From Streptomyces spectabilis (lineage in GTDB: Bacteria; Actinomycetota; Actinomycetes; Streptomycetales; Streptomycetaceae), in assembly GCF_008704795.1 (NCBI RefSeq), contig NZ_CP023690.1, forward strand, positions 5,838,501 through 5,902,500: a stretch of DNA of 64,000 nucleotides. The letters are read 5' to 3'. The notes beneath the pieces are model-generated. The model made no database searches. It saw only the letters and a list, made by a program, of their open reading frames with translations, and was not told the origin of the DNA. Below, piece after piece: positions 1,273 through 55,364 of the stretch. How positions within the stretch are numbered: position 1 is the stretch's first letter; every line of letters begins with the position of its first letter. The position numbers were made by a program, and so were the translations under genes.

Positions 1273-2061
1273 ATGCCGCGTTGGAAAGAGCTGCCCGCGC
1301 AGCTGGGGGAGCAGGAGCGTCAGCTCCTCGTCCAGTTACGGCGGATGAAGGACCACAGTGGACTCAGCCTGGCGTCGCTCGGCGCCAAGACCTCGTACAG
1401 CGGCTCCTCGTGGGAGCGGTATCTGAACGGCAAGAAGCCCGTGCCGCGTGCGGCGGTGGAGGAGCTGGCCCAGGTCTGCGGCGCGGACCCGACCCGGCTC
1501 CTCGTGCTGCACGAGGTGGCGCGGGCGGCGGACGGGCACGCGGAGCCGGTCGACAGCGAGGCCGAGGCCGTCGCGCCCGAGGCCGCGGCCCAGCCGGTGA
1601 CACGTGCGAGCGCGCCGCCGGGACCGCCCGCGGAAGCGCCGCCCGCGGCCCGCACCGTGCGGCTGCGCTCCGCGCTCACCGCGCTCGTGCTCGCGGTGGC
1701 CGCGGCGTTCGCGGGCGGCCTGCTCGCCGGGCGGGCGCTCTCGGGGGACGGGGGCGACGAGGGCCGCGGTGTGTTCGCGTACGCCCAGGAACGGACGTAC
1801 TCGTGCGAGAACGGCCGCGCCGACGGCGTCCGCCACGCCGGGTACTCGACGACGGCCACCGCGATCCTCGACCGGGGGAGCACCGGCTGGGAGGTCGTCG
1901 AGGCGCAGTGCCTGCTCAAGGCCCACGGCTTCGGCGCCGGGAAGATCGACGGGTCGTACGGCGACGGTACGAAGGCGGCCGTCAAGCGCTTCCAGCGCGC
2001 GCGGGGCCTGGTGACCGACGGCATCGTCGGCCCGGACACCTGGGGAGCGCTGCGCAAATGA
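1273..2061 (+). CDS. Membrane-anchored HTH protein with external peptidoglycan-binding domain
   Basis: 262-residue single-span protein. It has an XRE-like helix-turn-helix at about 18-75 with the motif SSWERYLNGKKPVPR, an acidic Pro/Ala linker, one transmembrane helix at about 133-155 and an outer region. The outer region ends in a PG_binding_1 domain (about 196-262; QCLLKAHGFGAGKIDGSYG, then FQRARGLVTDGIVGPDTWGA). The start is ATG 1273 behind CGGGGGAGAC; upstream in-frame codons are not coding-like. The layout suggests a protein that touches the wall outside and DNA or a partner inside. Its stop overlaps the start of the next paralogue (ATGA), so the two are coupled. Function is unknown; the sensing role is inference. 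Confidence 0.85.
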   Translation: MPRWKELPAQLGEQERQLLVQLRRMKDHSGLSLASLGAKTSYSGSSWERYLNGKKPVPRAAVEELAQVCGADPTRLLVLHEVARAADGHAEPVDSEAEAVAPEAAAQPVTRASAPPGPPAEAPPAARTVRLRSALTALVLAVAAAFAGGLLAGRALSGDGGDEGRGVFAYAQERTYSCENGRADGVRHAGYSTTATAILDRGSTGWEVVEAQCLLKAHGFGAGKIDGSYGDGTKAAVKRFQRARGLVTDGIVGPDTWGALRK

Positions 2062-2993
2062 AGGGGCGCGCGGGGCGGGACGGCCGGGGCGGGCCGTCAC
2101 CGGCGCCGCCGGCCGCGGGCCTGCCCCTCGTCGAGGCCCTGCGGGAGCTGCGGGAGCGCACGGGTCTGAGCCTGGAGGCCCTCGGCCGCAGGACCGCGTA
2201 CAGCAAGTCGTCCTGGGAGCGGTACCTCAACGGCAAGAAGCCCGTGCCGCGCAAGGCCGTCGCCGCGCTGTGCGCGCTCGCCGACGAACCGCCGGGCCGC
2301 CTCCTCGCGCTCTGGGACCTCGCGGACGCGGCGTGGAGCGGGCGGTCGGCGCGGGGGGACGACGCGAGCGCGGCGGACCGGCCTGGCGGTGACGGGGCGG
2401 GCGGTGACGGGGCGGGCGGTGACGGGGCGGCGGACGACATCGGCACGCTGGTCGGGTCCACGGGGCCCGTGCCGGGCGGCGCCGGGGCCGCGCGGCGGCG
2501 CCGGTCCGCGCTCGCCCTCGGGATCGCCGCCGTCGTGGTGGTCGCGGGCGGCGTGACGGCCGGGCTCGCCGTCACGCGCGACGACGACCGGCGGCGGGAC
2601 CGCGTGGCGACCGAGCCGGGGCCCGGCCCCTACGAGCCGCGCTGCGTCGGCGCGGCCTGCGAGGGCCGGCAGCCGCAGAAGATGGGCTGCGGCGGCCCGG
2701 GGCAGGTGGCCTCGCTCGCCACCCGCTCCTTCGCCCCGGAGCGCCGGGTCGAACTGCGCGTCGGCAAGGCGTGCAACGCGGTGTGGGCGCGGGCGACGGG
2801 CCTGCTGCCCGGCGATCGCGCGGTGGTCTCCCTGCCGGGCGCGCGGGCGAAGGAACTGCGGGCGGACGAGCCCGAGGACACCCGTCGGTATCTGGCCACG
2901 CCCATGACGGCGCTCAAGGGCGCGGATCCGGCGGACGCGACGGTGTGCGTGACGTTCGCGGAGACCGCGACGAAGACCTGCTTCTCCGGCTGA
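2058..2993 (+). CDS. Membrane-anchored HTH protein with DUF2690-type outer domain
   Basis: 311-residue paralogue of the preceding gene, coupled to it by a 4-base ATGA overlap. The helix-turn-helix spans about 25-80 (AYSKSSWERYLNGKKPVPRK). A linker contains GGDGA three times, encoded by a 15-bp tandem repeat. One transmembrane helix lies at about 150-172. The outer domain has the cysteine signature C196-x4-C201-x9-C211 (CVGAACEGRQPQKMGC) and two more cysteines near the end, matching the DUF2690 pattern found on streptomycete HTH proteins. The outer domain probably folds as a disulfide-bonded beta-rich module. Ligand and DNA target are unknown. A strong hairpin follows the stop. Confidence 0.85.
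   Translation: MKGRAGRDGRGGPSPAPPAAGLPLVEALRELRERTGLSLEALGRRTAYSKSSWERYLNGKKPVPRKAVAALCALADEPPGRLLALWDLADAAWSGRSARGDDASAADRPGGDGAGGDGAGGDGAADDIGTLVGSTGPVPGGAGAARRRRSALALGIAAVVVVAGGVTAGLAVTRDDDRRRDRVATEPGPGPYEPRCVGAACEGRQPQKMGCGGPGQVASLATRSFAPERRVELRVGKACNAVWARATGLLPGDRAVVSLPGARAKELRADEPEDTRRYLATPMTALKGADPADATVCVTFAETATKTCFSG
2385..2429 (+). repeat. Three tandem 15-bp repeats inside the HTH/DUF2690 gene
   Basis: GGCGGTGACGGGGCG is repeated exactly three times (2385-2399, 2400-2414, 2415-2429) in frame. It encodes a flexible Gly-Asp-rich linker between the DNA-binding and membrane segments. Unit number could vary by slippage without a frameshift. Confidence 0.9.
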
Positions 2994-3047
2994 GTCCCGC
3001 GAAGGCCCGGTCCGGGCCCAGTTCAGAGCCTGTCCGAAGACGAAGGA

Positions 3048-3085
3048 CGGCGCCCGTCCTCTCCCCCGTGGGAGGACGGGCGCCG
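3048..3085 (+). terminator. Strong hairpin terminator after the HTH pair
   Basis: The arms GGCGCCCGTCCTC (3049-3061) and GAGGACGGGCGCC (3072-3084) pair perfectly, with one more C-G pair outside and a 10-base loop. It lies 55 bases after the 2993 stop. The rest of the gap from 2994 to 3335 holds only a short GGCCCGG/CCGGGCC inverted repeat near 3005 and the leader of the next, broken HTH gene. Confidence 0.8.
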
Positions 3086-3335
3086 CCGTACGTCCGGGAG
3101 CGGGATGCGCGCTCGCCGTGTGTCTTCAGCGTCATGGACACGCCGTCTTCGCTTCAAGGGCGGCCGGTTCCCTGTGGCACGGAAGTGACCATTCCGCAAC
3201 GGTGTGCGGGGCCCGCTACGGCTGCGCGACGACCCGGCAGGGAAGGCCCCGGGGGCGGGAACCAAACAGGGCTGTTCCCCCGTCACGTGACAAACCGGAT
3301 GGGGAGGAACCAGGGCGCGCGAGGAGGGGTGGACG

Positions 3336-3604
3336 ATGAGTGCGCGCGCGAGCGCCTGGCAGCCGCTGCCGGAGGAACTGCCGTCGGAGGTGCGGCACTT
3401 CGTGGAGCTGCTGCGGCGGCTCAAGGACCGCACGGGCCTGAGCCTCGTCGGGCTCGGCGAGCGGGCCTCATACAGCAAGTCCTCCTGGCAGCGTTACCTC
3501 AACGCCCGGCAGCCCCCGCCCGGCTGCTCGCGGCCCGGGACCTCGCGGCGCGGGTGTGGCCGCGCGGCGGGACGACGCCCGCGCCGGGACCGGAGCGGAC
3601 GGCG
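3336..3604 (+). pseudogene. Broken paralogue of the membrane HTH family
   Basis: Start ATG 3336 has a good site (GAGGAGGGG) and codes a normal HTH half: LKDRTGLSLVGLGERASYSK, then SWQRYLNARQPPP. The reading frame then leaves the family. The expected continuation (RLLAARDLAARVWPRG) lies in another frame at about 3515-3565, just after the break. So roughly 17 codons were lost together with the frame. No transmembrane or outer domain remains. Homology disappears near 3600, where a second decayed gene on the other strand begins. The open frame runs on to 3614 without meaning. A truncated 92-residue HTH peptide could still be made. Confidence 0.75.
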
Positions 3605-3820
3605 GCCCCGTTGACCTCCTCCAGGTCCTCGTGCCGCTGCCACCTGTACGTGGCCGACTCCGTCCGCGTACAGGACCGTCTGCCACAGGGCGGTGGCGTC
3701 GCTCACCGTGCGTGGCTGCCGATGGACAAGGTGCCCTCCTCGCCCCAGTCGTTGTACGCGTAGCCGCTGCCGTCGGGGCTGCCGGGGCCGCGGGCCGCCG
3801 GTGGTCGTGGTGTGGTGCAT
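3594..3820 (-). pseudogene. Decayed secreted peptidoglycan-binding-type gene
   Basis: Two overlapping minus-strand frames carry pieces resembling the C-terminal half of streptomycete peptidoglycan-binding proteins. The pieces are SGYAYNDWGEEGTLSIGSHA in one frame and SDATALWQTVLYADGVGHV in the next, so at least one frameshift separates them. A start codon with a GGGGGA site survives at 3820. The sequence ends abruptly near 3600 against the broken HTH gene. Assignment is from the ALWQ..LYADG pattern only. Confidence 0.5.
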
Positions 3821-36725: not shown

Positions 36726-37001
36726 GTGAACACGAGCACCTCGACGGCGGAGGCGATCTCTCAGACCCCGTGGGGGTTCGGTCGTATGGCTCCGCTGCGC
36801 AACGGTTCCCCCTCACCCTGGCGGTACGCGGGCGTTGATCCGGTGACGCAAACCGGCCGGTGGATCGGGGAGGACGGAGCGATGGTCCCGGCTGAACTCG
36901 GGAAGCACGGTACGAGCGTGAACACCTACCCGCCTACTCAGGTCGGCAAAGACGGCAAGGTCGACCCGGACACGGGCCAGGACGCGGAGCAGGACGAATA
37001 G
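36726..37001 (+). CDS. ATP-grasp-modified RiPP (graspetide) precursor peptide
   Basis: 91 residues from GTG 36726 with a strong AAGGAGGAG site. It fits the actinobacterial family of putative ATP-grasp-modified RiPPs: leader MAPLRNGSPSPWRY, conserved VDPVTQTGRWIGEDG (37-51), ELGKHGTS (57-64), then a short C-terminal core. The core, about 65-91, has donors T67, T71, K75, K78 and T83 and acidic acceptors D76, D80, D82, D86, E88, D90 and E91, suited to ester or amide crosslinks. The maturase starts 11 bases downstream. There is no signal peptide, and no exporter gene is adjacent. Confidence 0.9.
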   Translation: MNTSTSTAEAISQTPWGFGRMAPLRNGSPSPWRYAGVDPVTQTGRWIGEDGAMVPAELGKHGTSVNTYPPTQVGKDGKVDPDTGQDAEQDE

Positions 37002-37012
37002 GAGGCAGCGCC

Positions 37013-37972
37013 ATGGACGGACGTCCGGTGTTGGTCTCCACGCGGGCAGAGGACGCAACCGCGGATGTGGTCATCGCAGAGTTGAACCGGCGCCGTGTGC
37101 CCGTCCTCCGGTTCGACCCCGGGCGGGACTTCCCCGCTCGCGCGGTGATCGCCGCCCGTACGAGTGCGGACGGCTGGGCCGGGCACCTCGCGGTCGGGGA
37201 CCGTACGGTGGACCTGTCCGGCGTACGCGCCCTGTATCACCGTCGGCCGAGTGCCTACGTGACGGACAGCGGCGAGCAGGCCGCGCGGTTCGCCGCTCAG
37301 GAGAACCGGCGTGGACTGGGCGGAGTGCTCGGCGCGCTGCCGGGGTGCCTGTACCTCAGTCATCCGCAGGCCATCGCGCGGGCGGAGTACAAGCCCGCGC
37401 AGTTGGCAGCGGCGGCCCGGGTGGGGCTCAAGGTCCCGGCCAGCTTGATCACGAACGATCCGATGGAAGCCAAGGAATTCTGCGCCGCGCAGCCGACGAT
37501 CTACAAGCCCTTGTACGCGGGGACGTACGACGTCGGGGGCGAGCCCGCCGGAATCTGGGCCGCCCCGGTCGCGGCGGGGGAGGTCGACGGCGCAGTGAGC
37601 CACAGCGCGCACCTGTTCCAGGCGCAGGTGCCCAAGGTGGCGGACGTGCGCGTGGTCGTCGTCGGCGATCAGGTGTTCACCGCGCGCATCACCGCGCCGC
37701 CCGGTGTCGTGGACTGGCGGGCCGAGTACCAGAGCCTCACCTATGAGCCGGTCGCCTGCCCGGAGGAGATGCGCGGGGCACTCGTGCGGTTCCTCTCCGC
37801 TTTCGGACTGAGCTTCGGCGCCTTCGACTTCGCCGTGACCGGTGACGACGGATGGTGGTTCTTGGAGTGCAATCCCAACGGACAGTGGGCGTGGCTCGGT
37901 GCGACACGAAGTCGCGTACGGCGAGTGAACTCGCAGATTGGAGACCGGTTATGCCGGATGCGTAGTTCCTGA
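37013..37972 (+). CDS. ATP-grasp graspetide maturase, exon 1 (gene split by group II intron)
   Basis: ATP-dependent ligase that would activate precursor carboxylates and form macrocyclic ester/amide bonds. The coding part is 37013-37898 (295 codons plus one base); the remaining 24 codons to 37972 are intron read-through. The pre-ATP-grasp domain starts VLVSTRAEDATADVVIAELN. The ATP-grasp core has AEYKPAQLAAAARVGLKVPA, TIYKPLYAGTYDV, VRVVVVGDQVFTARI and FDFAVTGDDGWWFLECNPNG, whose E and N are the metal ligands. Joined to exon 2 (40427-40500) the protein is 319 residues and ends [15 protein letters not shown]..., as the family does. GGAGG lies 7 bases upstream of ATG. Without splicing the C-terminal helix is lost. 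Confidence 0.93.
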   Translation: MDGRPVLVSTRAEDATADVVIAELNRRRVPVLRFDPGRDFPARAVIAARTSADGWAGHLAVGDRTVDLSGVRALYHRRPSAYVTDSGEQAARFAAQENRRGLGGVLGALPGCLYLSHPQAIARAEYKPAQLAAAARVGLKVPASLITNDPMEAKEFCAAQPTIYKPLYAGTYDVGGEPAGIWAAPVAAGEVDGAVSHSAHLFQAQVPKVADVRVVVVGDQVFTARITAPPGVVDWRAEYQSLTYEPVACPEEMRGALVRFLSAFGLSFGAFDFAVTGDDGWWFLECNPNGQWAWLGATRSRVRRVNSQIGDRLCRMRSS

Positions 37973-38582
37973 TCAGTGTTCGAGATCAGTCTCCGCCCTG
38001 ACGTGCGTTCACAGGTCCTGCCTGTAGAGGGTGCGAAGCTCAGGGTAAACGCCTAAGGGCCCCCGTTCCGTCCGGGGGAGCAACCAGGCAAGGAGAAGGC
38101 CGAGCGGGCGAACGTAAGTGAACCTCTGATGATGTCTCGTTAGCCCAAACTCTGGGTGACGGAGAATCAACCAGGGTGATAGAGCCTAGCCGTTGGAAGA
38201 GGCGGCAAGCGGCGACCGGACAGAAGCCGTCGGTCGTGGGAACACCGCTGGCTCCGGGGCATAGGGGGCGCCCACCCCGGCCGTATCTCGTGTACGCGGA
38301 ACGTGGAAACCCCGTCGGGGTCCGGGCCTTCTGGCCCGGTAGGCCGATCGTAAGAGGGGCGGAACCCCTCGGCGGGAAAGGAAGCCCAAGAAGCGGATGC
38401 CGGCTGCCGAAAGGCAACAGGATTCAGGGCAATTTGCCACCCCTCCAGGTAGCCGCCCTGGGGAACTGGCCGGATGCCGGTCCTGGCGACCGGTCCCGAA
38501 AGGGAGCTGACGTGGGCTGGTGAGCCTTTGAACTTCGAGGCCGACGCCTCACGAACCAAGGGACAAGTTGGAGGCCAATACG

Positions 38583-40352
38583 GTGAACGGACCCAAGGAC
38601 GTTCCCGAATGGGACGCCATCACCTGGCGTCACCATGAGGAGAACGTAGTGAGACTGCGGCGGAGGATCTTCAAGGCGACGCGGGACGAGGACTGGGCCA
38701 CGGTCCGGTCCTTGCAGAAGATGATGCTGAGGTCATGGTCGAACACGCTACTCAGCGTGCGGCAGGTGACCCAGCGCAATGCTGGACGCCGAACGGCTGG
38801 GATTGATGGGGAAACTGCCCTGACGCCCGAGACCAGGATGGCAGTGGCCATGCGCGTGCACCGCACACGGTCGTCCTGGGATCCGCTGCCGGTCCGGCGT
38901 GTGTACATTCCGAAGGCCAACGGGAAGCAGCGCCCGCTCGGAATTCCTGTGATCGTGGACCGGTGCCATCAGGCTCGGGTCCGCAATGCACTTGAGCCTG
39001 AATGGGAAGCGCGATTCGAGCCGAGATCGTATGGGTTTCGTCCCGGTCGTAGCTGCGCGGATGCAATCGGCGCCCTCTACACCACGCTGAAGGGCGTTCA
39101 CGCCAAGAGGCTGTGGATTCTGGACGCCGACCTGTCCGCCGCGTTCGACAGAATCGGTCATAAACCATTGCTCGAAGCACTCGGATCGTTTCCTGCCAGG
39201 AAAATGATCCGTGGGTGGCTGAAAGCAGGAGTGGTCGAGGACGGTATGGTCAAGCCGACCGAAGAGGGGTCTCCTCAAGGTGGCGTGATCAGCCCGTTGC
39301 TGATGAACGTGGCACTCCACGGGCTGGAAGAGGCCGCCGGGGTCCGCTATCTGACGTCCGGCGTCAACGCCGGACAGATGGAGAGGGGGGCTCCTGTTCT
39401 GGTGAGGTACGCCGACGACATGGTTGCCTGCTGTCACTCGCAGCAGCAGGCTGATCAGGTCAAGGCACAGATTGCGACGTGGTTGGCGCCCAGGGGACTG
39501 ACCTTCAATGAGGATAAGACGCGCATTGTGCACCTCGCCGATGGGTTTGACTTCTTGGGTCTCACTATCCGCCGGTTCCGCGACAGCAAGCTGATCATCA
39601 CTCCGAGCAACAAGGCGGTCAAAAGGCTGAGGAAACGGCTCGCGGACGAGATGCGCTCTCTGCGTGGAACGAACGCGAAGGTGGTCATCGCCAAGCTCAA
39701 CCCGATCATCAAGGGCTGGGCTGCCTATTACCGGGGTGTCGTGTCCAGTCGAATCTTCACATCGCTGGACACCTATGTGTGGCGGCTCACTTACAAGTGG
39801 GCCAGATATACGCACCCAAACAAGTCGAAGAAGTGGATCGTGCGCCGCTACTACGGCAAGTTCAACGTGTTCCGGAACGACCGCTGGGTGTTTGGAGACC
39901 GCGACAACGTCAGTGAGAGCGGGACGACATTCCACATGGTCAAGTTCGCCTGGACGAACATTGTCCGGCACCAGTTGGTCGCAGGCGGAGCGTCACCCGA
40001 CGACCCCGGCCTGACCGACTACTGGGCCAAGAGGCGAAAGAGGGTCAAGCCTCCGCTGGACAGTTACAACCTGCGCCTGCTAGCCAGGCAGGACGGTCGC
40101 TGTCCGCTCTGCGGGGACCACATCCTCATCGCCGAACAGCCGCCGCAATCCCCGCACGAATGGGAACGCTGGTGGCTGAGCACCGTCCGTAGAGCAATAG
40201 CAGCCAGCTATCTCACTCATCACGGACGCGGCACGCCGGGCGGAACACAAACACGCCTTGTACACGCCTCCTGCCATCGCGGGCTTCAAGCCCGTCAACG
40301 CAGAAAGCCGAAGCTCGAATCATCTCCCGCAACGCCCTTGCGGCTTGCTTGA
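38583..40352 (+). CDS. ltrA: Group II intron-encoded reverse transcriptase/maturase with HNH endonuclease
   Basis: 589 residues from GTG 38583, chosen because GGAGG (38570-38574) lies 8 bases upstream; TTG 38568 is the alternative. Reverse-transcriptase blocks include RPLGIPVIVDRCHQARVRNA, RSYGFRPGRSCADAI and LDADLSAAFDRIGH. The catalytic box is LVRYADDMVACC (about 272-284). The maturase X domain contains LNPIIKGWAAYYRGVVSS (about 380-400). The C-terminal endonuclease has CPLCGDH and a later HASCHRGL (about 505-580), an HNH zinc arrangement. All domains look intact, so splicing and retrohoming should be possible. The stop overlaps domain V of the intron. Confidence 0.95.
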   Translation: MNGPKDVPEWDAITWRHHEENVVRLRRRIFKATRDEDWATVRSLQKMMLRSWSNTLLSVRQVTQRNAGRRTAGIDGETALTPETRMAVAMRVHRTRSSWDPLPVRRVYIPKANGKQRPLGIPVIVDRCHQARVRNALEPEWEARFEPRSYGFRPGRSCADAIGALYTTLKGVHAKRLWILDADLSAAFDRIGHKPLLEALGSFPARKMIRGWLKAGVVEDGMVKPTEEGSPQGGVISPLLMNVALHGLEEAAGVRYLTSGVNAGQMERGAPVLVRYADDMVACCHSQQQADQVKAQIATWLAPRGLTFNEDKTRIVHLADGFDFLGLTIRRFRDSKLIITPSNKAVKRLRKRLADEMRSLRGTNAKVVIAKLNPIIKGWAAYYRGVVSSRIFTSLDTYVWRLTYKWARYTHPNKSKKWIVRRYYGKFNVFRNDRWVFGDRDNVSESGTTFHMVKFAWTNIVRHQLVAGGASPDDPGLTDYWAKRRKRVKPPLDSYNLRLLARQDGRCPLCGDHILIAEQPPQSPHEWERWWLSTVRRAIAASYLTHHGRGTPGGTQTRLVHASCHRGLQARQRRKPKLESSPATPLRLA

Positions 40353-40426
40353 GCCGTGTGCGTCGAAAGGGCGCACGCACGGTTCTGAGGGGGCGGGGAC
40401 GCAGCAATGCGTCCCCGCTACCCGAC
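40351..40426 (+). ncRNA. Intron domains V and VI
   Basis: Domain V (40351-40385) starts GAGCCGTGTGCGTC and ends GCACGCACGGTTC, with the AGC catalytic triad and GAAA loop. Domain VI (about 40387-40423) leaves A40420 unpaired between GCT and CCC, the expected lariat branch point. The intron ends 6 bases later. Confidence 0.9.
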
Positions 40427-40500
40427 AAGACGCGGTCGGGCTGCCGATCAGTACCGCGATCGCCGACCTGTTGGAGAACGGAGTGAGCCATCATGACTGA
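40427..40500 (+). CDS. ATP-grasp maturase, exon 2
   Basis: 74 bases. The first two (AA) complete the Glu codon begun by G37898. The rest codes [20 protein letters not shown] and then HHD and a stop. This is the conserved C-terminal helix of the maturase family, unreadable in frame unless the intron is removed. The TGA at 40498-40500 overlaps the methyltransferase ATG at 40493 by 8 bases, so the two proteins are translationally coupled in the spliced mRNA. Confidence 0.92.
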
Positions 40501-41614
40501 CCCCTTGCCCGCGGAACACCTACGGGCCGAGCTGGCGCGGAACCTGTCCAAGAGCGGTGCGCTACGTGGCCCCCAGTGGGAAGCGGCCGTTCTGTCCGTC
40601 CCCCGCGAGGCGTTCCTCGCGCGTGGCTGGTTCGAGTACGAAGAGGGCGGCTGGTACCGGCCCACTGCCGGGGACACCGCTGCGGATCTCGCCCGGATCT
40701 ACGAAGACGACACCCTCGTCACGCAGGTCGCCGGGGCGGTCTTTCCCGACCAGGTCGAGGGGCGTATCGCGGCGGCCCCCTCGTCCTCGTCCACCCTGCC
40801 GAGTCTGGTCGTGCGGATGCTCGAAGACCTGCGGGCGACCGAGGCAACGCGCGTACTGGAGATCGGCACGGGCACGGGCTACTCAACGGCGCTGCTGTGC
40901 CATGTCGTGGGCGAGGACAACGTGATCACGGTGGAAGTCGACGCGGAGGTGTCCGCCCGCGCCGGAATCGCGCTCGCGGGCGCCGGATTCTGGCCCACGC
41001 GGGTGGTCGGTGACGGCCTTGTGGGATGCGAGGACCGGGGCCCGTACGATCGCGTCATCGCCACCTGCGGCGTGCACACGGTGCCAAGTGAATGGCTCGC
41101 TCAGACCCGTCCCGGCGGTGAGGTCCTGGTCACGGTCGGCGGGTGGATGCACGCATCCGAACTCGTACGGCTCACGGTCGCCGACGACGGCACGGCCAGC
41201 GGCCCGGTTCTCGGCGGACAGGTCTCGTTCATGCTGGCCCGCCCACACCTTGCGCCCCCTCTCGAAATCCTGCCGAACTTGGGCGAGGGCGACGCGATCC
41301 CCGCCGAGCTGGGCGCCGATGTACTCGACCACTGGACAGCCCGGTTCGTCGCACAGTTCGCCGCGCCACGCGTACAGCGGCTCACCCTGGAACGGCACGG
41401 CCGACCGGAACACGTGATCATCGACGTGGAGGCCGGATCCTGGGCCGCTGTCTTCGAGGACGGCGGACGATGGATGGTCCGCCAGGGCGGCCCGGCGCGC
41501 CTGTGGGACCAGATCAGCGAACGCGTCACCGGCTGGCAGGCGGACGGGCGCCCGCCCACCGACCGAATGCGACTGCACGTCGGCCCCGACGGGCAACACC
41601 TCACATGGGCGTAG
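40493..41614 (+). CDS. PCMT-like O-methyltransferase of the graspetide system
   Basis: 373 residues; cytoplasmic SAM-dependent enzyme of the protein-L-isoaspartate methyltransferase type. Residues 85-100 carry the family's [17 protein letters not shown] segment. SAM motif I is [15 protein letters not shown] (about 122-136). [20 protein letters not shown] and [11 protein letters not shown] follow. The C-terminal 150 residues are an extension typical of ATP-grasp RiPP clusters. In characterised systems (fuscimiditide type) such enzymes methylate an Asp of the graspetide, which then cyclises to aspartimide. The same is expected here but not shown. Its start overlaps exon 2 of the maturase. Confidence 0.93.
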
Positions 41615-55226: not shown

Positions 55227-55235
55227 GGTTTCCAC

Positions 55236-55318
55236 AGCGCGGCGACTGGCGCACAGGGAATCGACCCTGAGGAAGCCGTGCGAGGCAGAACCTTCGAGGT
55301 GCCGAACGCCTGGGCACC
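55236..55318 (+). promoter_or_regulatory. ZTP-type (pfl) riboswitch upstream of glyA
   Basis: The leader has the two conserved blocks of the ZTP/ZMP riboswitch: GCGGCGACTGGCGCACAGGG (starting 55239) with pairing CAGGG/CCCTG, then AGGAAGCCG. A variable stem (CGAGGCAGAACCTTCG region) follows, and the 3' block GCCGAACGCCTGGGCA (55301-55316). ZTP signals purine/folate shortage and such riboswitches commonly precede glyA, folD and purH. The glyA start is about 47 bases downstream. Confidence 0.85.
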
Positions 55319-55364
55319 CCGGGACAACGACCGGACACCATCACCGCTCGCCCCGGAGGACGCC

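Follow-up and report, generated by a model that had tools for sequence, protein, structure and literature searches.

A group II intron within a graspetide maturase gene of Streptomyces spectabilis and its relatives at the homologous codon

Most bacterial group II introns lie outside housekeeping genes; residence in such genes is described for cyanobacteria and for the chloroplast-like (CL) and mitochondria-like (ML) lineages in the accessible part of PMC4424553. Excerpts of PMC8919778 report integration after terminators for some intron types and contain nothing on the site considered here. The introns Ll.LtrB and Ef.PcfG, according to the sections of PMC5072309 at hand, share a single conserved position across several relaxase genes. 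The present case lies in a stretch of 64,000 nucleotides from Streptomyces spectabilis (NZ_CP023690.1, positions 5,838,501 to 5,902,500; this whole stretch is the window), in which a group II intron splits the gene for an ATP-grasp maturase of a graspetide-type cluster. With a probability of about 0.82, we read the locus as an insertion into the maturase gene after which splicing, aided by the intron-encoded protein and at least partial, restores the complete enzyme.

Ll.LtrB, which resides in relaxase motifs, comes closest as a precedent. In the sections of PMC5072309 at hand, homologous introns with full-length reverse transcriptase/maturase genes are found, as here, at one position in conserved motifs of related genes, targeted by pairing of exon-binding sites (EBS) with intron-binding sites (IBS); the motifs are catalytic, and one ectopic copy is described. 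There the host is a relaxase gene carried by conjugative elements; the host here tailors a peptide, and alternative targets are transposase and transporter genes. The housekeeping-gene introns covered by the accessible part of PMC4424553 likewise reside within conserved genes that need splicing; in the present case, however, the host is a secondary-metabolism maturase of an actinobacterium, same-site kin are scattered and 14 close orthologues are intron-free. No paper in the PMC collection searched combines 'group II intron', 'Streptomyces' and 'ATP-grasp', or 'graspetide' and 'intron', and no such case appears among the listed matches of titles and abstract beginnings on group II introns and biosynthetic gene clusters or among those listed in wider searches; subscription journals are mostly outside this collection, so that this is not proof of absence. 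The locus would place RNA splicing within a bacterial peptide natural product pathway.

The split gene consists of the following parts:

37013..37898, + strand: 5′ exon of the ATP-grasp maturase gene (TIGR04187), 295 codons and the first base of Glu296
37899..40426, + strand: group II intron of 2,528 nucleotides, GTGCGAC...CCCGAC
40427..40500, + strand: 3′ exon, rest of Glu296 to the stop, 24 residues, colinear with orthologues

The intron is inserted after G37898 and thereby splits the Glu296 codon at NPNGQWAWL^E (the caret marks the insertion point). When 37898 is joined to 40427, the 3′ exon supplies the rest of Glu296 and 23 further residues up to a TGA, yielding a protein of 319 residues. 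An earlier sequence-only reading had foreseen both the Glu codon and this length, but let the protein end at ADLL, whereas it continues with ENGVSHHD to the stop at 40500. Against the TIGR04187 profile (cut-off 350 bits), the 5′ exon alone scores 370.2 bits over profile positions 1-295 of 312, while the joined protein reaches 395.1 bits and fills positions 1-312, as expected if the insertion interrupts a graspetide maturase gene whose C-terminus is regained by joining. The unspliced frame also encodes 319 residues, identical up to Leu295 and ending in an intron-coded tail of 24 residues. Since both forms are equally long, protein length cannot separate them, and it was rejected as proof of splicing.

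L083-L096, 14 close orthologues that share 69-85% of their residues with the joined protein, are all intron-free and align without a gap across the junction. A search of 5.8 billion proteins, in which just the 8,000 candidates with the most words in common with the query were scored, gave 768 matches at E <=1e-60. Among the best 120 of these 768, 119 are other than the window's own protein, and each of the 119 aligns over 18 or more of residues 296-315; intron-free homologues that end at residue 295, which had been named as evidence against a split gene, were not among them. In the same 119 homologues, F283, L284, E285, N287, N289, G290, Q291, W292, W294, L295 and E296 are identical throughout. 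As judged from these alignments, the insertion disrupts a highly conserved stretch, and the GQWxWLE motif at the junction is nearly invariant. Solved ATP-grasp enzymes (9bou, AMdnB 7m4s, 5ig8/5ig9 'ATP grasp ligase', CdnC 7mgv and 7drm) are themselves uninterrupted: five of the six extend from residue 6-13 to 311-318 of the joined protein and 7drm spans 111-310; in the two alignments inspected, the segment past the junction is matched through residue 311.

Within the intron, three elements can be delineated:

38568..40352, + strand: reverse transcriptase/maturase, 594 amino acids, TTG start, HNH-like C-terminus (motif only)
40351..40385, + strand: domain V, from the Rfam alignment and a consensus fold of 13 sequences
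40389..40423, + strand: domain VI with the bulged branch-point candidate A40420, from the consensus fold of 13 sequences

The intron begins with GTGCGAC at 37899, and its 3′ end, CTACCCGAC, finishes at 40426. The Rfam model RF00029 for domains V and VI matches 40349-40426 with 57.1 bits (gathering threshold 40, E 1.4e-8) and ends exactly at 40426, so that the limits proposed from the sequence alone have held. Group II introns have a GUGYG-like 5′ end and an AY 3′ end; the window intron conforms to both (GTGCGAC and ...AC) and carries, as had been proposed, A40420 as an unpaired bulge of domain VI, which is invariant across the 13 co-folded sequences. Covariation extends over domain VI and into domain V: of 29 pairs, 14 are altered on both sides in one or more sequences, with both-side changes at 10 pairs of the domain VI stem. 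The RF00029 score, the EBS/IBS pairing described below and the covarying stems rule out a chance domain V match. The window genome, one contig of 9.8 Mb, holds no second match to this intron at E <=0.001.

The intron-encoded frame retains YADD, has zero internal stops and matches TIGR04416 with 335.4 bits (cut-off 300) as well as the Pfam families RVT_N (PF13655), RVT_1 (PF00078) and GIIM (PF08388). Hence, the intact reverse transcriptase/maturase that the earlier reading had described is well founded; its HNH domain is a reading of the C-terminal motif CPLC...HH...LVHASCH, for which Pfam gave no HNH match even at a limit of E 10. The best PDB match is 6me0_C (358.2 bits over residues 13-519), far ahead of LtrA with 113 bits, which sets the window protein apart from that of Ll.LtrB. 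The entries 6me0, 6mec and 8fli presumably represent the maturase reverse transcriptase of a T.el4h-type intron; we take the 6me0 intron to be of CL class (IIB), to which the window intron may also belong. On these sequence features, the window element is a mobile group II intron with exact boundaries, intact domains V and VI and an intact reverse transcriptase/maturase frame.

How the intron finds its site was approached through complementarity between seven exon stretches and approximately the first 520 nucleotides of 40 introns, i. e. that of the window, a plasmid copy (L155) and 38 of 113 scanned loci (the start of L003 was set by hand). A locus was dropped if its 5′ end could not be recognised, if its maturase fell below 60% identity or if its 16-nucleotide flank was a repeat of another. 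The scan assigns the following elements:

37886..37890, + strand: IBS2 (positions -13 to -9), TGGGC, 5/5 pairs with EBS2 in the 40-intron scan
37893..37898, + strand: IBS1 (positions -6 to -1), GGCTCG, 4/6 pairs with EBS1
38143..38147, + strand: EBS2 (intron nucleotides 245-249), from 40-intron complementarity
38223..38228, + strand: EBS1 (intron nucleotides 325-330), from 40-intron complementarity

Over the 40 introns, EBS1 forms a mean of 5.18 of 6 pairs with positions -6 to -1, compared with a mean of 2.23 and a maximum of 3.03 in 5000 shuffles, and EBS2 forms 3.81 of 5 pairs with positions -13 to -9 (shuffles: mean 1.88, maximum 2.54), although these shuffles overstate the certainty because the EBS positions were picked on the same data. 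Runner-up positions reached at most 2.78/6 and 2.54/5. From the complementarity over 40 sites it follows that the intron recognises its address through base pairing. As Trp has one codon, protein selection would hold the address around CA(A/G)TGGNNNTGG nearly constant, and such a constant address could account for the repeated insertions into maturase genes. The intron seems to home to protein-conserved DNA that is rich in Trp codons.

The site is not a one-off, which goes beyond the sequence-only reading: to judge by the sequences, related introns occupy the homologous maturase codon in other strains. By identity of the intron-encoded maturase, the nearest relatives are found in S. typhae (L002, 83%), Streptomyces sp. 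SCSIO 30461 (G290; L142 and L143, 82%), S. ipomoeae (L003, 81%) and Nonomuraea (L004, 79%). Those at the homologous ATP-grasp codon are L002, L142 and an S. spectabilis protein, P0002. In S. typhae the intron interrupts an ATP-grasp frame at GQWAWL^E; the exon of this frame is shortened, and immediately upstream of it a transposase-like remnant was noted by eye (L002 2936-3304 and 3004-3975, minus strand). Strain SCSIO 30461 carries two identical intron copies of 2,529 nucleotides. Copy 1 follows a full-length ATP-grasp 5′ exon (TIGR04187, 370.2 bits) at ...NPNGQWSWI^EHETGVPISRAIADLLEKG, with an EBS1 pairing of 5.5/6 in this maturase-gene copy, while copy 2 resides in a DUF4096 IS4/5-type transposase (IS, insertion sequence) at SDEQWALI^Q, whose 3′ part matches PF13340 with 69.7 bits. 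The orthologue of the window maturase gene in this strain (L088) is intron-free.

A search for read-through products of the window gene found three proteins with the intron tail: the window's own and, from S. spectabilis, P0002 and P0003, of which the proteins alone were seen. P0002 is an ATP-grasp paralogue (TIGR04187, 409.6 bits) with 55% identity to the window maturase. P0003 is an ATP-binding cassette (ABC) substrate-binding protein (PF13458) that reads ...WQWAWP^ and then runs into the intron-coded tail; its counterpart in the window genome, 96% identical over residues 1-341, is intron-free and its site reads CAGTGGGCCTGGCCGC^CGGTC. The corresponding search from the SCSIO 30461 gene gave 21 matches, of which 20 are intron-free and one, that strain's own deposited read-through protein (P0123), bears the tail. 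The entries P0002, P0003 and P0123 are thus read-through forms with an intron-derived end, a warning for annotation. Same-codon introns, identical copies in a maturase and a transposase gene, and an empty site together form a naturally replicated system in which target choice, the cost to the host gene and splicing control are measurable.

The neighbouring genes complete the presumed pathway:

36726..37001, + strand: precursor peptide gene (GRASP_targ / Actino_peptide), TIGR04186 47.1 bits (cut-off 25), PF14408 42.1 bits (cut-off 25)
40493..41614, + strand: cluster methyltransferase, TIGR04188 418.4 bits (cut-off 380)

Precursor, maturase and methyltransferase are consecutive and each exceed their family cut-off (TIGR04186, TIGR04187 and TIGR04188; the maturase in spliced form), a trio that we take to be graspetide makers, whose product would carry omega-ester or amide crosslinks. 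The spliced maturase frame, whose stop is at 40498-40500, contains the methyltransferase ATG (40493) among its last codons (ATGACTGA), and a maturase stop that overlaps a possible methyltransferase start was found in 7/7 orthologues checked (ATG in six, GTG in one).

We propose that the mobile intron entered the NPNGQWAWL^E codons by EBS/IBS-guided reverse splicing into matching DNA. As known for other group II introns, the precursor mRNA would then be spliced, in part at least, with the help of the intron-encoded maturase, so that the mature mRNA would encode the complete 319-residue enzyme and would also re-create the overlap of maturase stop and methyltransferase start. Unspliced RNA would instead give a protein of equal length, with the ATP-grasp residues up to Leu295 and the intron-coded tail. 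Splicing in the window strain is likely but not certain. Weighing against this proposal is above all the EBS1-IBS1 pairing of the window intron, in which positions -2 (C.A) and -1 (G.G) beside the splice site are unpaired; four of the 40 introns, the window's included, score 4.0 or less. This weak pairing is the chief doubt on splicing efficiency. In the same direction point the S. typhae host gene, whose ATP-grasp homology is confined to approximately the 30 codons that precede the intron, so that it is evidently not maintained there, and P0002, in which an Arg follows WAWL; its split codon must start with C and hence does not encode Glu. Residue 296 itself is Glu in 27 of 29 loci including distant paralogues (L083-L111), the exceptions being L095 (Gln) and L108 (Pro). 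Moreover, the ratio of nonsynonymous to synonymous differences (pN/pS) against seven orthologues is 0.28-0.65 for the 3′ exon and 0.26-0.30 for the 5′ exon, the former being higher in 6/7 comparisons, although 24 codons are too few to judge present constraint. The insertion may also be too recent for decay.

One alternative is that the intron splices too poorly or not at all, which would leave the maturase gene effectively knocked out and the cluster silent or decaying. This is unlikely, yet a serious contender: beside the imperfect EBS1 pairing and the S. typhae remnant, the intron is single-copy, and relatives of at least 78% identity occur, besides the window's, in G290 and G149 alone among 392 sampled genomes of the genus, that of the window included. 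Set against it are the full EBS2 pairing, the intact domains V/VI and maturase frame, the family scores of all three cluster genes and the full-length 5′ exon with its well-paired EBS1 in SCSIO 30461. Conceivably, splicing could even act as a switch, with the ratio of spliced to unspliced RNA setting the amount of graspetide and the translation of the methyltransferase. Insertion at a conserved codon, the recurrent stop/start overlap and the suboptimal EBS1 pairing would suit such a role, and according to the part of PMC6003770 at hand, Ll.LtrB inhibits the expression of the relaxase gene in which it resides; we nevertheless consider it improbable, as copies vary between strains and genes and a selfish element fits at least equally well. 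Still more remote is the notion that the unspliced read-through protein already functions as a maturase, with splicing dispensable. It does keep the FLE-x-N residues and passes the TIGR04187 cut-off with 371.5 bits over 1-297, but E296 and the C-terminal segment are present in all 119 homologues, and the solved relatives align well beyond residue 297, as described above. The odds of these alternatives overlap with those of restoration by splicing, which needs merely some accurate splicing, and are not to be summed to one. Compared with the sequence-only reading, the precision of the insertion is better supported, the certainty of splicing is weaker and the phenomenon is more general.

With regard to history, a tree of 34 maturases unites the window, L002, L142, L003 and L004 in one clade (100/100), branching in the order window, L002, G290 and then the two transposase-borne introns (supports 100/95, 100/99 and 100/98), while the IS21-type pair L144/L155 is joined to this clade with lower support (92/95). 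A simple reading makes the maturase-gene site the older and the transposase site the derived one; with five lineages and much mobility, this is a lead rather than a result. Site and pairing comparisons show graspetide maturase genes as a repeated target of related introns, hit at a single codon with base pairing as the guide. Spread would be favoured by a target that coincides with a protein-conserved, TGG-rich motif, which is little changed between paralogues and present in transposases and other genes. A bolder version, which we regard as rather doubtful, is that the lineage is at home in graspetide maturase genes: it would use the TGG codons of GQW-x-W-L-E as its address, occupy distinct maturase genes across four or more Streptomyces, jump to transposases with the look-alike QWAL(I/V) and control peptide maturation through the level of splicing.

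A relative at E <=1e-150 is present in 44 of the 392 genus genomes. When 391 genomes of the order were searched for the 5′-junction pattern QWxW[LIVMF]^intron with one mismatch allowed, two sites emerged, that of the window and a transposase-like one (G589). Among plasmids, 102 of 72,556 records match; the best full-length one among the best 20 of these 102 is NBC_01643 (80.8%), in an IS21-type frame, and one record outside these 20 has its best place at >=99% identity. A phage-borne intron was rejected, as matches came from two of 50,697 phage records and spanned only 3% of the query. Both collections may omit records very close to the window's genome. The IS21 label of L144/L155 follows from a neighbouring istB and from the motif AQVDWG, which we take to be IS21-type; Pfam gave helix-turn-helix (HTH) matches below cut-offs on L144.

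Among further relatives, L009 is flanked by VQWDWL^E, its 5′ piece having two Pfam matches below cut-off and its 3′ piece none, and more distant kin lie, by their flanks, in the conserved coding motifs PGHWEGD^LIIG and GTPQGG^VVSP. The rule that bacterial group II introns usually avoid conserved genes, invoked in the sequence-only reading, agrees with the accessible part of PMC4424553 for bacteria in general and fails for several of the closest kin, which sit in conserved, mostly transposase-like motifs. For some other relatives, no long frame across the junction or not both ends were found. The flanks of L073, L035 and L116 resemble the reverse transcriptase gene of another intron (GTPQGG^VVSP; GFDFL^; the last two read by eye), so that nested introns are likely. 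In L003, about 2.3 kb of extra sequence (1431-3722) lies within the intron near nucleotides 406-410. L137 (G311, maturase identity 55%) sits at VLEIGTG^TGW of a methyltransferase, presumably S-adenosylmethionine (SAM) motif I, whose 3′ part is 33% identical to the window's cluster methyltransferase. Genome G269 carries three identical introns of 2501 nucleotides in three genes (L145, L146 and L147), each after DWE-x-W and before Gly; the one host piece of the three that was scanned (L145) has no Pfam match at 1e-3, and we presume a kinase-like motif in these genes. Finally, a ZMP/ZTP riboswitch (RF01750, 47.9 bits) is located at 55232-55322 of the window and bears no relation to the intron.

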